From: Levilactobacillus fujinensis | Lineage (GTDB): Bacteria > Bacillota > Bacilli > Lactobacillales > Lactobacillaceae | NCBI RefSeq assembly: GCF_003946335.1 | Contig: NZ_RHNX01000002.1 | Coordinates: 1-64,000 of the forward strand | Reading direction: 5' to 3' | Length of the DNA: 64,000 nucleotides | Part shown: positions 5,774 through 23,725 of the stretch, in pieces | Position numbering within the stretch: position 1 is the first letter of the stretch | Layout: every line of letters begins with the position of its first letter | The notes under the pieces: generated by a model | Told to the model about the DNA's origin: nothing | What the model saw: the letters and a program-made list of their open reading frames with translations, nothing else | Database searches by the model: none | Made by a program: the position numbers and the translations under genes

Positions 5774-5812
5774 CACAAAAAAACCATCGACGGTGTGTCG
5801 ATGGTTTTTTTC
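5774..5812 (-). terminator. Terminator of the cold-shock gene
   Basis: AAACCATCGAC / GTCGATGGTTT stem with a 5-nt loop, flanked by A and T runs so that it can work in both directions. It lies about 20 nt past the csp stop codon. Confidence 0.85.
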
Positions 5813-5833
5813 GACTCGATTTAGGCTAATAAA

Positions 5834-6037
5834 TTAGTCAACAACCGAAACGTTAGCAGCTTGTGGGCCACGGTCGCCTTGTTCTACATCAAGGGATACG
5901 TGTTGGCCTTCTTCAAGAGTCTTGAAGCCTTCACTGTTGATAGCAGAGAAGTGAACGAAAACGTCTGAGCCGTTTTCCAAAGTGATGAAGCCGTAACCTT
6001 TATCAGCGTTGAACCATTTAACAGTACCTTGTTCCAT
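5834..6037 (-). CDS. Cold-shock protein (CspA/CspB family)
   Basis: A 67-residue OB-fold RNA/DNA-binding chaperone. RNP1 is KGYGFITLE (about residues 13-21) and RNP2 is VFVHFSAI (about 26-33); the length and C-terminus ([11 protein letters not shown]) are standard. GGAGG lies about 10 nt upstream of the ATG. About 150 nt of AU-rich sequence upstream (6038-6190) carries no gene and probably forms the long structured leader typical of cold-shock mRNAs. Its specific paralogue name cannot be settled from sequence alone. Confidence 0.95.
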
Positions 6038-6227
6038 AAGAATGAAACCTCCGTGCGCATAGCGCAATATATTTGCATTTGAAAGCTGGGGTAAAAAGGA
6101 GCCATTCTTAAAGAACGTCGAGCCTTTAAAACTTCCGAACCATAAATACATTAAACATAGGATAACAGGTATTTCCGATAATAGCAAATAGAAAGTGCCA
6201 AAAAGTCTATTAATTTTTAAATATCAG

Positions 6228-8837: not shown

Positions 8838-10493
8838 TTGAAACACTGGGAAACATTTTTAATAGGCCTGCTACTATGTATCGGGCTGGCTGGGTGCACT
8901 GTGGTCCAAGAAACGGTGTCACCTAGTGATAGTAAAGGGGTCATGACGAAGAATCAGGTACTTAACCTATCCACGTCGCATCCCCTCACCACCTTAGATA
9001 CTGACAAGATGAGTCAGTTTGGTCGGCTCAATAATACGATTGAAGGCCTCTTTTCGGCAACCGGTGATGGTCAAACCGAACTTGCCCTCGCCAAAAAGGT
9101 CACCCTTAACAAATCACGCACCACTTACACCTTTACGCTCTGGAAGGATTCCTACTGGAGTAACGGCGACCTTATCACTGCCAACGATTTCGTCTACTCC
9201 TGGCAACGGGCGCTCACACCCCAGACCAAGGCACCGGATGCCGACCTATTTGTTGGGATTCACAACGCACGGAAAATTCTTGACGGACGTCTCCCCGCCA
9301 CACAACTTGGCGTGAGTGCTCCCAGCAAGTTTAAGTTGGTCGTTCATCTCGACCATCCCATGGCAGAACTCCCACAGCGACTGACTTATCCCCTATTTGG
9401 ACCGCAAAATGAACGTATTGCTGAGAAATTTGGCAAGCGCTACGGGACGAAGCCACAGTATCAAGTCTACGCGGGTCCTTTCATGGTCGCCTCCACGGGC
9501 AACACCAAGCAGCACTGGCACATGGTCCCCAACCCCCACTACTGGGACCGGGAACACGTCTATCTCAGTCGGATCAACGTCAACGTTTATCACAATCTAA
9601 AAAAATCTTGGCATGCCTACCAGAGTGGCAAGCTAGACGAGGTTCGGCTGTGGTCACAGTCCAACATGAAATACTACGAAAAGCAGGCAGCTTACACGGC
9701 TCGTCCCTATTCTAAAATGGTGCTGCTTGCCTACCGGACAACTGGGAAGAACACCACAATTAACCAGTTGCTCCTACAAAAAACGGCTCGATTAGCCATT
9801 TCTCACGCGGTTAACCGCCAAAAATTAGCACGAGCCTCTTATGGGAGTACGTCGCTACCAGCACAGGGCATAGTTCCAGCTGGCTTGAGCCGCGGGCAAC
9901 GGGGAACAGCTGATTTTGCAGCGGCACAGCCCAATCAAAAGACCGTGGCCTACCAACCTAAACAGGCAAAAAAAGAATGGCAAACAGCGCTGAAGTCAGC
10001 CGGCGTCAAACACGTGACCTTGTCCGTGAGTTATTTAGACGCCATTTATAGTGCAAAGCTCGCTAGAAAGCTAAAACAACAACTTGAGTCCACCCTACCT
10101 GGTTTAACAATCAAGCTTAAGTCACGTGGTTGGACCGTTGATGAACAGGCTGGGCCACTTGAAGCCGACCTCACCATCCTCACCCAACGTGCGCAGTACG
10201 CCGATCCACTGGCCATGCTGGCGCTTTACACCCGTTCAAGTACTGCTAACCTGGGACACTGGTCAAACCAGACCTACGATAATTTGGTCGCCGAGGCCAG
10301 CAATGCCACTTCATTTAGTACCCACCGCTGGCAAACCTTGTTGAAGGCCGATGGTGTCCTCATGGCACAACAGGGCGTCACACCGCTATTACAACCTGCT
10401 AGCACTTACCTGATTAACCCCAAGCTTAATGGCGTTCAGTACAACACCGTGGGCACGCAATCGAATTTCAAGGAAGCTTATTTCGTCAAATAA
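8838..10493 (+). CDS. Oligopeptide ABC transporter substrate-binding lipoprotein (OppA family)
   Basis: An extracellular peptide-binding lipoprotein (SBP_bac_5, 551 residues). The signal peptide MKHWETFLIGLLLCIGLAGC ends in a lipobox (LAGC). Family hallmarks are WSNGDLITANDFVYSWQRALTP, the central MVPNPHYWD segment, and DPLAMLALYTRSS near the C-terminus. TTG at 8838 is the probable start because GGAG lies 8 nt upstream; a GTG three codons earlier overlaps that site. No permease or ATPase genes lie nearby, so this is an orphan binding protein feeding a shared Opp transporter. It has its own promoter. Family B repeats do not flank it, but a family A repeat follows it. Confidence 0.9.
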   Translation: MKHWETFLIGLLLCIGLAGCTVVQETVSPSDSKGVMTKNQVLNLSTSHPLTTLDTDKMSQFGRLNNTIEGLFSATGDGQTELALAKKVTLNKSRTTYTFTLWKDSYWSNGDLITANDFVYSWQRALTPQTKAPDADLFVGIHNARKILDGRLPATQLGVSAPSKFKLVVHLDHPMAELPQRLTYPLFGPQNERIAEKFGKRYGTKPQYQVYAGPFMVASTGNTKQHWHMVPNPHYWDREHVYLSRINVNVYHNLKKSWHAYQSGKLDEVRLWSQSNMKYYEKQAAYTARPYSKMVLLAYRTTGKNTTINQLLLQKTARLAISHAVNRQKLARASYGSTSLPAQGIVPAGLSRGQRGTADFAAAQPNQKTVAYQPKQAKKEWQTALKSAGVKHVTLSVSYLDAIYSAKLARKLKQQLESTLPGLTIKLKSRGWTVDEQAGPLEADLTILTQRAQYADPLAMLALYTRSSTANLGHWSNQTYDNLVAEASNATSFSTHRWQTLLKADGVLMAQQGVTPLLQPASTYLINPKLNGVQYNTVGTQSNFKEAYFVK

Positions 10494-20275: not shown

Positions 20276-20545
20276 AAAAGTCCGCTCCTAAATTAATAGA
20301 AACGAACTTTGTCGTGGTACCATTCTAATTTAAGTTAGGCTAAAAAGATGCCCAGCTCCTCATTAACACTCGCCAGCTTACGCCTTCAAGTGCGTGCACG
20401 ATAATGAGTGCCAGTCATCACTACCTCATCACTCGGACTTAGTAGTGCCAATTCATTTCAGGCCATCTTCACCCCGTCGTTGGTTACCCACTTACAGCAA
20501 ATCGTAGGTTCTCTTTAAACCGTTAACAGTGGTTACTCTCCTGAT
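20276..20545 (-). promoter_or_regulatory. Methionine T-box riboswitch of the metQNI operon
   Basis: On the minus strand, the T-box sequence AATGGTACCACGAC (20311-20324) matches the antiterminator consensus TGGNACC.CG, and is followed by a terminator hairpin (AGTTCGTTTCT / AGGAGCGGACT) ending in TTTTT (20276-20310). Upstream, GGAGAGTAACC begins stem I and CTGAA-ATG-AATTGG presents an AUG specifier, so uncharged tRNA-Met should antiterminate. Confidence 0.88.
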
Positions 20546-20779
20546 CACATTGTTTTCAATCGCTTAATTTATCAGTAAGTCTAATGCAACTTTAATCCGG
20601 TGTCAAGCGGGAATTGACATAAATTATTTTATATCAGGGCCCGTCAAACTAGGATTTGACCATCATCGTAACAATTAAATCGGTTACAGTCAAGCTGAAT
20701 CTCTCACTTAAATTTCACATAATAGCTCGTGTGGTCTGCAGAAAATAACGGCTAACCGTTATTTTTTGACCGAAGCCCA

Positions 20780-21756: not shown

Positions 21757-23397
21757 CTATTTGATATAAGCGTACTTGTAACTCCACTGTGTACCAGCCG
21801 TATTGTGAATGATGCCTTTAACATCAGTCCGCTGAAGGTAAGCATAGTTGGCCTGGTAAAGCGGCGTAAAGCTCTGGGTCTTGTTGATCAGCTTAGCCGC
21901 CTGAACCATATCCTGCCAGCGGGCTTCATCATTCCCGGCATCCTGGTTTTGTGCCTTGGCAATCAGCTTATCATAAGCTTTATTAGACCACTTGCCATAG
22001 TTCAAAGAGTTTGAGCTGACTGGAATCTGCAGGAATGAAATTGGATCGTTGAAATCGGCTCCCCAGTGAGACAGGTACAGGTCAAAGTCACCACTAGTCG
22101 AGCGAGACTGGGCCACGGAGGCAGGTACGTTTTGAATCGTCAGGTCAAACCCCTGCAAATTCTTTTCCAGAGCACTCTTCAGGTACTGCGTTACGGTGCT
22201 AGCCGCAACGTCATCATTCCCAGCCATGATGTTCAAATTGACCTTCTTAATTCCCAACTCCTTCAGTCCAGCCGCCCATTTTTGCTTGGCTAAGCTTGGA
22301 TTATAAGCCGTCGTATTTTTCACGGCCTGCTGTTTAGCAAAGTCCTCACCCGTCTTCGGATCACGAGCCAATCCACTCGCGACGAAGCCGGTTGGCGTCA
22401 CGGAACCATCTCCCAAAACTTTCTTGGTCAGCTGACTACGATTGATGGACAACGCGATGGCTTGGCGAATATTTTGGTTGCTCATAATCCGTCGTTTTTC
22501 CTTGTTAGCGTCTTGGAAGTTGTACTTCAAGTGAATGACAATAGAGTACGGGTACTCCTGAAAGGCACTGTTGTTTTTATAATTCTTCACTTGCTCGTTT
22601 GAAAGCTGAGCGAAGTCTAATTTTTTATTTTGATACAGACTCAGACCGGTCTGGGGGTTCGTGACCACTTGATAGTTGATCCGATGAAGTTTCACGACCT
22701 TCTTATCCCAGTACTGGTTGTTCTTAACGAAGGACCAAGTGTTGCCCGTCCCCGTCCAGTTAGTGATTTTAAATGGACCACTGTAGACCATGTACTGTGA
22801 CTTTGTCGCATACTTCTTACCGTATTTATTGATGACCTTTTCGTTTTGTGGTGCAAACAATGGATATGCCATTAAGATCTTAAAGTAAGCAATTGGCTTC
22901 TCCAATTGGATAACGACCGTCTGCTTGTTCTTAGCACTGATACCAATGCTGTCCGGGTTCGCTTTACCAGCGATGATCTTGTCACCGTTCTTGATACCAG
23001 AAAACATATTCATGTAAGATGACTTGGTCGATGGTGTTAACGTCCGTCGCCAAGAGTAAACGAAGTCCTGCGCGGTGATCTTGTCACCGTTACTCCACTT
23101 GGCGTTGTCTCGAATATGGAACGTCCAAGTTTTTTTGTCCTTTGAAACCTTCACGGTGTCAGCTAAACCAGGGGCAACCTTACCGTCCTTGCCCAACCGA
23201 TAAAAGCTTTCGAACACATTTCCTGTCTGACCATAACCCGTGGCCTTGGCAAGATCAATCGTATCTAGCTGTGCTGTCGCTGGTAACCGGAGCACCTGCG
23301 AAGGTTTTGCCGCTGATGTTGATTGGCCACAAGCTGCTAACCCCAGGCTCATAGCAATCACTGCAGCGACTAATCCAAATCCAGTCCATTTCTTCAT
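21757..23397 (-). CDS. Oligopeptide ABC transporter substrate-binding lipoprotein (OppA family)
   Basis: A 546-residue SBP_bac_5 lipoprotein with signal peptide and lipobox SLGLAACGQS. Family motifs include WSNGDKITAQDFVYSWRRTLTP, the GPFKITNWTG strand, VKNNQYWDKK and GADFNDPISFLQIPVSSNS. It should bind peptides outside the cell for a shared Opp permease; no permease genes adjoin. The start has GGGAG at normal spacing. What is special is its leader: a cysteine-rich mini-ORF and a terminator lie between promoter and gene (see 23463-23725), suggesting control by cysteine supply, and hence a role in taking up cysteine-containing peptides. Confidence 0.92.
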   Translation of the reverse strand: MKKWTGFGLVAAVIAMSLGLAACGQSTSAAKPSQVLRLPATAQLDTIDLAKATGYGQTGNVFESFYRLGKDGKVAPGLADTVKVSKDKKTWTFHIRDNAKWSNGDKITAQDFVYSWRRTLTPSTKSSYMNMFSGIKNGDKIIAGKANPDSIGISAKNKQTVVIQLEKPIAYFKILMAYPLFAPQNEKVINKYGKKYATKSQYMVYSGPFKITNWTGTGNTWSFVKNNQYWDKKVVKLHRINYQVVTNPQTGLSLYQNKKLDFAQLSNEQVKNYKNNSAFQEYPYSIVIHLKYNFQDANKEKRRIMSNQNIRQAIALSINRSQLTKKVLGDGSVTPTGFVASGLARDPKTGEDFAKQQAVKNTTAYNPSLAKQKWAAGLKELGIKKVNLNIMAGNDDVAASTVTQYLKSALEKNLQGFDLTIQNVPASVAQSRSTSGDFDLYLSHWGADFNDPISFLQIPVSSNSLNYGKWSNKAYDKLIAKAQNQDAGNDEARWQDMVQAAKLINKTQSFTPLYQANYAYLQRTDVKGIIHNTAGTQWSYKYAYIK

Positions 23398-23462
23398 AAA
23401 CTTAATGCTCCCTTTTTCCTCAAATTTAGTGGCGTGCAATCCCTAAATTGTGACGTGGTACA

Positions 23463-23508
23463 GAAAAAGCGGGTTACCCTTCACTCGCATCGTGAAAGGT
23501 AACCCGCT
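23463..23508 (-). terminator. Attenuator terminator upstream of the OppA gene
   Basis: On the minus strand, AGCGGGTTACCTTTCAC pairs with GTGAAGGGTAACCCGCT across a short loop and is followed by TTTTT. It stands 51 nt after the leader ORF stop and 65 nt before the oppA start, so it would block readthrough into oppA. A segment GGCTAAACCG at 23544-23553 can pair with its left arm (CGGGTTACC, 23498-23506). Confidence 0.85.
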
Positions 23509-23559
23509 ACACTGACAACCGGAGTCGTCGTTATGTATTGCTACGGTTTAGCCGAAAAA

Positions 23560-23646
23560 TCACGAATTTGAGCAACGCAAAGAGCACACGTTACATTCGC
23601 AACATGCAGCAGACATCAATTGAGTTTGATTTGCGTTGATCATCAT
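23560..23646 (-). CDS. Cysteine-rich leader peptide (28 residues)
   Basis: A mini-ORF with an excellent ribosome binding site (AAGGAGG, 10 nt before the first of two ATGs). Its second half reads AACCECNVCSLRCSNS, with five Cys codons (TGT or TGC, residues 15, 16, 18, 21 and 25). No signal peptide or maturation genes are nearby, so a secreted peptide or RiPP precursor is less likely than a regulatory leader. Stalling at Cys codons would leave GGCTAAACCG, 6 nt past the stop codon, free to pair with the terminator's left arm. A ribosome finishing at the stop would cover it and let the terminator form. This is the trp-attenuator logic applied to cysteine. Evidence for the ORF is strong; the mechanism is inference. 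Confidence 0.75.
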   Translation of the reverse strand: MMINANQTQLMSAACCECNVCSLRCSNS

Positions 23647-23696
23647 CGTAATTTTTCCTCCTTACTTTTTGTAATTAATCGGATTGCACAGGTATA

Positions 23697-23725
23697 AAGT
23701 TACCCTAGTTCAAAACATTTGTCAA
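23697..23725 (-). promoter_or_regulatory. Promoter of the leader ORF-oppA transcript
   Basis: On the minus strand, TTGACA, a 17-nt spacer and TAACTT. The -35 is perfect; the -10 is weak at two positions. It lies 51 nt upstream of the leader ATG. Confidence 0.6.

Follow-up and report, generated by a model that had tools for sequence, protein, structure and literature searches.

The window analysed here, 64,000 nucleotides (nt) of Levilactobacillus fujinensis (contig NZ_RHNX01000002.1, positions 1 to 64,000), carries on its minus strand a short cysteine-rich open reading frame (ORF) followed by an intrinsic terminator and an oppA gene. We find that this leader is very probably an attenuator of the trp/his type, in which the ribosome reads the supply of cysteinyl-tRNA (Cys-tRNA) and thereby controls transcription. 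A preliminary description of the same DNA had read the region as a cysteine-leader attenuator, and this reading is now supported by conservation, by compensatory base changes, and by leaders that precede orthologous oppA genes in other genera.

In the trp, his and leu attenuators, a short leader ORF in which regulatory codons stand in tandem is combined with a terminator and with mutually exclusive pairings of RNA segments, 1:2, 2:3, and 3:4. The leader described here has the same ORF, tandem codons, exclusive pairings and terminator, but differs in that the codons are Cys codons, the hosts are Lactobacillaceae, the target is a peptide-binding lipoprotein and segment 1 is the leader's own Shine-Dalgarno (SD) and start region.

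All parts of the locus lie on the minus strand and are given in window coordinates. The perfect -35 box of the preliminary description, TTGACA, is present at 23725-23720 and is found upstream of the leader in 35/35 Levilactobacillus loci. It is followed after a 17-nt spacer by a weak -10 box, TAACTT (23702-23697), which was read from the sequence, as its 3/6 match to TATAAT kept it from being listed by the promoter scan; several relatives have TATCTT instead. The SD sequence AGGAGG (23662-23657), kept in 35/35 loci, and the 28-codon ORF MMINANQTQLMSAACCECNVCSLRCSNS (23646-23560) with its five Cys codons (15, 16, 18, 21, and 25) are likewise present. The constant codons Cys15 Cys16 Glu17 Cys18 (TGT TGC GAA TGT, 23593..23604), of which codon 17 varies in relatives, sit within a hairpin that had been overlooked, GCATGTTGC-GAAT-GTAACGTGT (23607-23586), which is conserved and possibly an RNA polymerase pause hairpin.

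Six nucleotides past the leader TGA stands GGCTAAACCG (23553-23544), as noted before, and this segment can indeed pair, but for one bulge and one mismatch, with CGGGTTACC in the left arm of the terminator. The antiterminator built on this pairing is real, but its true extent is about twice that first described, with TCGTGA (23565-23560) also pairing with TCACGA (23495-23490). Segment 2, the antiterminator 5' strand, is TCGTGATTTTTCGGCTAAACCG (23544..23565), and segment 3, which forms the 5' arm and loop of the terminator, is CGGGTTACCTTTCACGA (23490..23506); segment 4 is the 3' arm. A small hairpin (23509..23537, core 23529-23514) supported by covariation separates segments 2 and 3. The terminator with its T-tract spans 23464..23508 and has the 17-pair stem (23508-23468) already reported, with oppA behind it. 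A further pairing that had escaped notice joins segment 2 to segment 1, the SD/start region GAAAAATTACGA (23646..23657), and would sequester the leader's SD. The leader RNA as a whole folds with a z score of -6.6 against dinucleotide shuffles. The gene behind it, oppA (21757..23397, ATG at 23397, SD AAGGGAG), encodes a family 5 solute-binding lipoprotein (PF00496, 261.7 bits).

From the observed parts, their conservation and covariation, and the gene associations set out below, we infer how the switch would work. Transcription would start from the TTGACA promoter and a ribosome would translate the leader. When Cys-tRNA is ample, this ribosome would reach the stop codon and mask segment 2, allowing 3:4 to form and halting RNA polymerase before oppA. 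When Cys-tRNA is scarce, the ribosome would stall at Cys-Cys-x-Cys inside the Cys-codon hairpin and leave segment 2 free, so that 2:3 would form, the terminator would be blocked and polymerase would read through into oppA. With no ribosome on the leader, segment 2 would pair with segment 1 and the terminator would form, and the switch would thus default to off. The OppA made under induction would scavenge glutathione or peptides that contain cysteine, by way of a transporter whose genes lie elsewhere, and the most likely role of the switch is to turn on cysteine-peptide uptake under cysteine shortage.

A search at the DNA level detected the leader in 35/35 Levilactobacillus genomes, and every one of these loci has the ACC[EQVK]C core, the SD and the upstream TTGACA. 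The number of Cys codons is five in 11 loci and four in 24; Cys15, Cys16, and Cys18 form the constant core, but Cys21 and Cys25 are not kept. The distance from the ATG to the core is a multiple of 3 in all 35 loci, across five different lengths. Past the core the frame shifts, the distance from core to motif being 35 nt in 20 loci, 36 nt in 11, and 37 nt in 4, while the bases themselves are conserved despite these 1-nt differences. Selection therefore acts on the RNA and not on the tail of the peptide: translation matters as far as the Cys codons, and beyond them it is the base pairing of the RNA that counts. The ORF passes through segment 2 and ends near the end of that segment in 30/35 loci; in the other 5, the window included, it stops early inside TCGTGA (ORFs of 28 or 30 codons). 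A terminating ribosome sits on segment 2 for early and late stops alike. In the window (23544-23585), the truncation comes from a length change of 1 nt that lies past the Cys core in the window's lineage, and the tail of its relatives is still readable in another frame. The terminator is kept in 34/35 congeners (33 by pattern, plus L011; loci are designated L and genomes G). A pattern derived from the genus and run over named genomes returned 31 stretches, 29 in Levilactobacillus and 2 in Lactobacillus sp.

The alignment of related loci that the preliminary description had proposed showed four or five Cys codons in 35/35 congeners, as well as base changes that compensate one another in each of the pairings 1:2, 2:3, and 3:4, and because of this its suggested objection to an attenuator, namely Cys codons or stem arms that are not conserved in relatives, fails. 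Pairs were counted in 33 aligned loci, leaving out L011 and L035, in which the terminator pattern had no match. For 1:2, 85.3% of cells are paired, against 31-64% in slid controls, and 6/13 pairs have changes on both sides; for 2:3, 86.0% of cells are paired, against 32-46%, with both-side changes in 5/15 pairs. Such covariation is also seen in 9 terminator pairs and 2 pairs of the small hairpin, where columns 148:173 are AU in 24 loci, CG in 6, GC in 1, and unpaired in 2. Duplex energies are lower for the true partners than for permuted ones, at -19.9 versus -16.0 for 1:2 (26 unique sequences) and -16.0 versus -14.0 for 2:3 (25 unique), with 0/1000 permutations as low in either case; kinship between the species inflates these permutations, and the shuffle tests as well, and to that extent tells against them.

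We simulated the switch in 34 loci by placing a ribosome at a chosen codon, with RNA polymerase positioned where segment 3 ends. Ribosomes at the three core Cys codons gave 6.9-17.9 expected 2:3 pairs; the figure was 0.0 in 30 loci once the ribosome stood on the stop codon, and 0-7.7 without a ribosome. When segment 2 was shuffled, at most 5/100 shuffles were as high as the native sequence in 23/30 unique loci.

Covariance model R1 matched in 37/397 Lactobacillaceae genomes (25 Levilactobacillus and 12 others), and 10 of the 12 matches outside the genus proved on reading to be Cys leaders, the other 2 being false. Peptide profile A4 gave more matches than R1; 20 of its loci were read, of which 12 were leaders and 8 were not (E values of 0.002 to 0.05), and model R2 matched in 58/388 genomes, with 7 new places that are all Cys-rich leaders on reading. 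These tallies are lower bounds, as some leaders share little besides the Cys run. No fewer than 12 Lactobacillaceae genera have Cys leaders, six of them from the R2 search and six more from the orthologue set described below. The runs in other genera include CCPCC, CCxxCC, CCC, CCCS, and CCCC, and a CC pair is present in 26/26 rows of profile A5 and in all 8 leaders of the orthologue set; apart from Cys, these peptides have little in common. The CATGTTGY...AACRTG of the Cys-codon hairpin reappears, around longer loops, in some other genera. The 1:2 pairing, examined in each sequence's own letters, reaches a z score of ≤-2 in 19/28 leaders (range, -0.4 to -5.5), a set that omits L221, where the scan had no T-tract terminator; because the automatic terminator search often took in an upstream hairpin, the 2:3 figures of this set were not used. 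In additional leaders the same score was reached by 9/11 (range, -0.2 to -6.6), the terminators of L230 and L237 being doubtful. A Ser codon in the leaders of one genus has T, C, A, or G as its third base, and this base tracks the one flanking the SD (A, G, T, C) across 15 loci, with a G-T wobble in L119 and a mismatch at the neighbouring pair in L080. To judge by these sequences, the RNA switch is kept in its layout and not in its sequence: between genera the Cys codons stay, as for the most part does the pairing that sequesters the SD, and nearly all other bases change.

Outside the family, profile A5 gave 22 weak places (E values of 5e-4 to 0.014) in 395 Lactobacillales genomes, and no leader was found at the 18 that were read. 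No OppA orthologue was found at an E value of ≤1e-135 in 40 genomes of other families, a set without a positive control. Among plasmids there was no DNA match to the window leader, and tblastn with a related leader peptide, a poor query as short Cys-rich peptides are, found none either.

An OppA search of 39 genomes of 39 genera gave matches at an E value of ≤1e-110 in 19 genomes, at 49 places. The ten best places, one per genome and with 53-62% identity, separate from the rest (≤48%); nine of these loci were fetched, and the tenth (G071) already had a known leader. Under a rule that accepts ORFs of 12-60 codons with an SD and at least 3 Cys within 480 nt, a Cys leader precedes 8 of the 9 fetched OppA orthologues of other Lactobacillaceae. 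Among paralogues at lower-scoring places (ranks 11-20 and 22 of 49), 1/11 passes the rule, by a doubtful 12-codon TTG ORF that has the look of an accident. Chance ORFs can satisfy the rule, as a second ORF also passes in L230 and L231; that of L231, a short ORF with a Cys run (MAKSCCCWMMTKN within), follows the first terminator close before oppA and is either a second leader or chance. Four plasmid oppA orthologues were examined among 413 matching records (from Lactobacillus amylolyticus, L. intestinalis, and two Ligilactobacillus salivarius plasmids), and a Cys leader was seen on reading in 3 and through model alignment in the fourth (L229). In a tree of 30 OppAs, 19 leader-bearing proteins and the orthologue of G058 fall in one group with support of 91/96, below the level that earns the tool's star; another three OppAs with leaders, two of one genus plus that of L220, fall elsewhere. 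The leader thus goes with one OppA lineage and is also attached to others. The window holds a second oppA paralogue at 8928-10484 on the plus strand (35% identity), at which the leader DNA, R1, and R2 searches found no leader.

The genes behind related leaders extend this picture. In L081, the leader precedes an operon for an ATP-binding cassette (ABC) transporter whose permease and binding protein best match cystine models, below the cut-off; L119 and L216 have polar amino acid ABC operons, the L119 permease best matching GlnP, again below the cut-off. In L217 and L218, the gene encodes a symporter of the SDF family, which includes the cystine carrier TcyP; solved relatives are glutamate and aspartate carriers. 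The leader of L087 stands before a MetA-like gene and then CysK (above the NCBIfam TIGR01139 cut-off), a metA-cysK operon headed by such a leader being seen in one genome (G231), and in L220 an OsmC-like gene comes first, in an osmC-oppA arrangement. On the two Ligilactobacillus salivarius plasmids (L228 2468-6599; L229), the genes after oppA are sufC, sufD and one for a cysteine desulfurase. Jointly, and not each singly, these genes point to cysteine, for OppA itself indirectly. A ROOL RNA lies upstream on L228 (1040-1581). Genome G252 carries two Cys leaders with nearly identical terminators, L119 before an ABC permease gene and L083 before oppA.

The analysis found a conserved translatable ORF with an SD, tandem codons, a terminator and, in relatives, cysteine-metabolism genes downstream; a mutually exclusive antiterminator was found by computation, and on this point the window sequence alone is weaker. 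Several observations weigh against an attenuator. Locus L035 (G006:C45) has an intact leader and segment 2, yet its terminator hairpin is gone, which may be a natural deletion (leaving oppA always on?) or a loss in assembly, and one OppA orthologue, that of G058, has no leader. Some pairs are often broken, 18:110 in 17, 129:187 in 17, and 131:185 in 14 of the 33 loci, and the further pair types in 1:2 are not above shuffles, 476/500 of which reach the count; outside the genus, 1:2 is close to chance in L220, L227, and L230. In the simulations, a ribosome at the stop codon leaves 4.8 pairs of 2:3 in the four loci of the window's clade, 7/30 unique loci exceed 5/100 shuffles for 2:3, and for the window's own sequence 7/100 shuffles reach the observed pairing. 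Finally, the terminator, at -26 to -38 kcal/mol, is stabler than 2:3, at -11 to -19, and antitermination would therefore have to be kinetic.

The same features can be set against other explanations. The nascent Cys-rich peptide could itself be the sensor, with CC-x-C or CC-P-CC binding a metal or reacting with thiols, persulfide or oxidants and arresting the ribosome, in which case the leader would report the thiol or metal state and not Cys-tRNA. The spacings CCxC, CCPCC, and CCC do resemble metal- or arsenical-binding motifs, and one leader precedes an OsmC-like gene. In arrest peptides, however, residues and spacing are not free, whereas here both the other residues and the Cys spacing vary between genera (CCEC, CCPCC, CCCS, CCCC) and only three Cys are constant within the genus; the downstream genes, moreover, are those for OppA, cystine-type carriers and CysK. 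We consider this explanation improbable, and hold it just as doubtful that the nascent chain senses thiol redox state, persulfide or metal in addition to Cys-tRNA and so gates sulfur-uptake genes. The recurrence of the 1:2 pairing in many of the leaders tested would also suit control exerted chiefly at translation, in which SD pairing to the ORF end links translation of the leader to some other process and the terminator does no more than end a short transcript. This we regard as very improbable and, in its pure form, reject, because the SD that is sequestered belongs to the leader and not to oppA, which has its own SD ∼50 nt beyond the terminator, and because the terminator and its exclusion by 2:3 are kept. 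A functional Cys-rich micropeptide gene with the terminator as its own end would account for the good SD and promoter and the conserved ORF, but 1-nt differences shift the tail frame within a conserved RNA, Cys is nearly all that the peptides of other genera have in common, and a Pfam search gave no match for the leader ORF; given the unstable tail frame and the conserved RNA, we reject it as extremely improbable.

T-boxes are familiar regulators of amino acid genes in lactobacilli. A T-box (RF00230) binds tRNA directly and needs no translation, unlike an attenuator of the kind proposed here, yet it does the same job in the same genome, before other oppA paralogues and metQ. A search with RF00230 over the genome gave 24 matches at an E value of ≤0.001, of which 5 were above the gathering score. 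Three other oppA paralogues and metQ are behind T-boxes that carry the T-box motif and score 75.7-83.5 bits, under the gathering score (93); one of these, at 83 bits, lies in the window at 20295-20557 (minus strand) and precedes a metQ-type lipoprotein gene and metNP. We rejected the leader itself as a T-box, as RF00230 did not match it at the gathering score and 0/24 genome matches fall on it. No Rfam family lies over the leader at gathering scores.

Leaders with Cys codons have been described in other bacteria. PMC8632094 describes the uORFC-8-2 motif upstream of cysS in Rhodobacterales, with tandem Cys codons in a stem followed by a terminator, and proposes stalling at low Cys-tRNA. That motif is alphaproteobacterial and belongs to a cysteinyl-tRNA synthetase gene, and the likeness is one of described layout; membership of the present leader was rejected, the gene downstream encoding a family 5 solute-binding protein and not CysS. 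In Actinobacteria, runs of Cys codons lie upstream of cys/cbs operons, and PMC1262725 reports no conserved terminator hairpins in Mycobacterium; polycysteine short ORFs in mycobacteria are credited to Canestrari 2020 in PMC13236596. These leaders are alike in having Cys runs upstream of cysteine genes, but here terminator and antiterminator are conserved. Within Firmicutes, PMC2965389 describes leader-peptide attenuation in place of T-boxes for hisZ and hisS* of bacilli, which is the same kind of control but concerns histidine and hisS-family genes. Among the matches listed in the literature searched, none described a cysteine leader peptide in lactobacilli. The principle is an ordinary one; amino acid, clade and target are new as far as the literature searched goes.

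An OppA-like protein can serve cysteine uptake. PMC10269559 ties CtaP of Listeria monocytogenes, a binding protein annotated as OppA, to high-affinity cysteine transport, a likeness in function; PMC5864092 concerns branched-chain amino acids in Listeria. If our reading is true, a cysteine-specific leader-peptide attenuator operates across at least 12 Lactobacillaceae genera, a substrate class is predicted for an orphan OppA annotated as a generic peptide binder, and there is a handle on the cysteine supply of food strains. For the cysK2-ctl1-cysE2 genes of L. paracasei, PMC6004538 notes high coverage of the 5' untranslated region with a mechanism that was not identified, and this region may merit checking for a similar leader.

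On the far side of the leader from oppA lies a GH3 gene (plus strand, 24038 onward), and downstream of oppA are a methyladenine glycosylase gene and then the metQ-metN-metP set. Among these locus neighbours no oligopeptide permease gene adjoins oppA; an OppC-type permease is coded elsewhere in the same genome (G000:C29). A match to the cspA thermoregulator was also observed in the window at 5777-6136 on the minus strand (91 bits).

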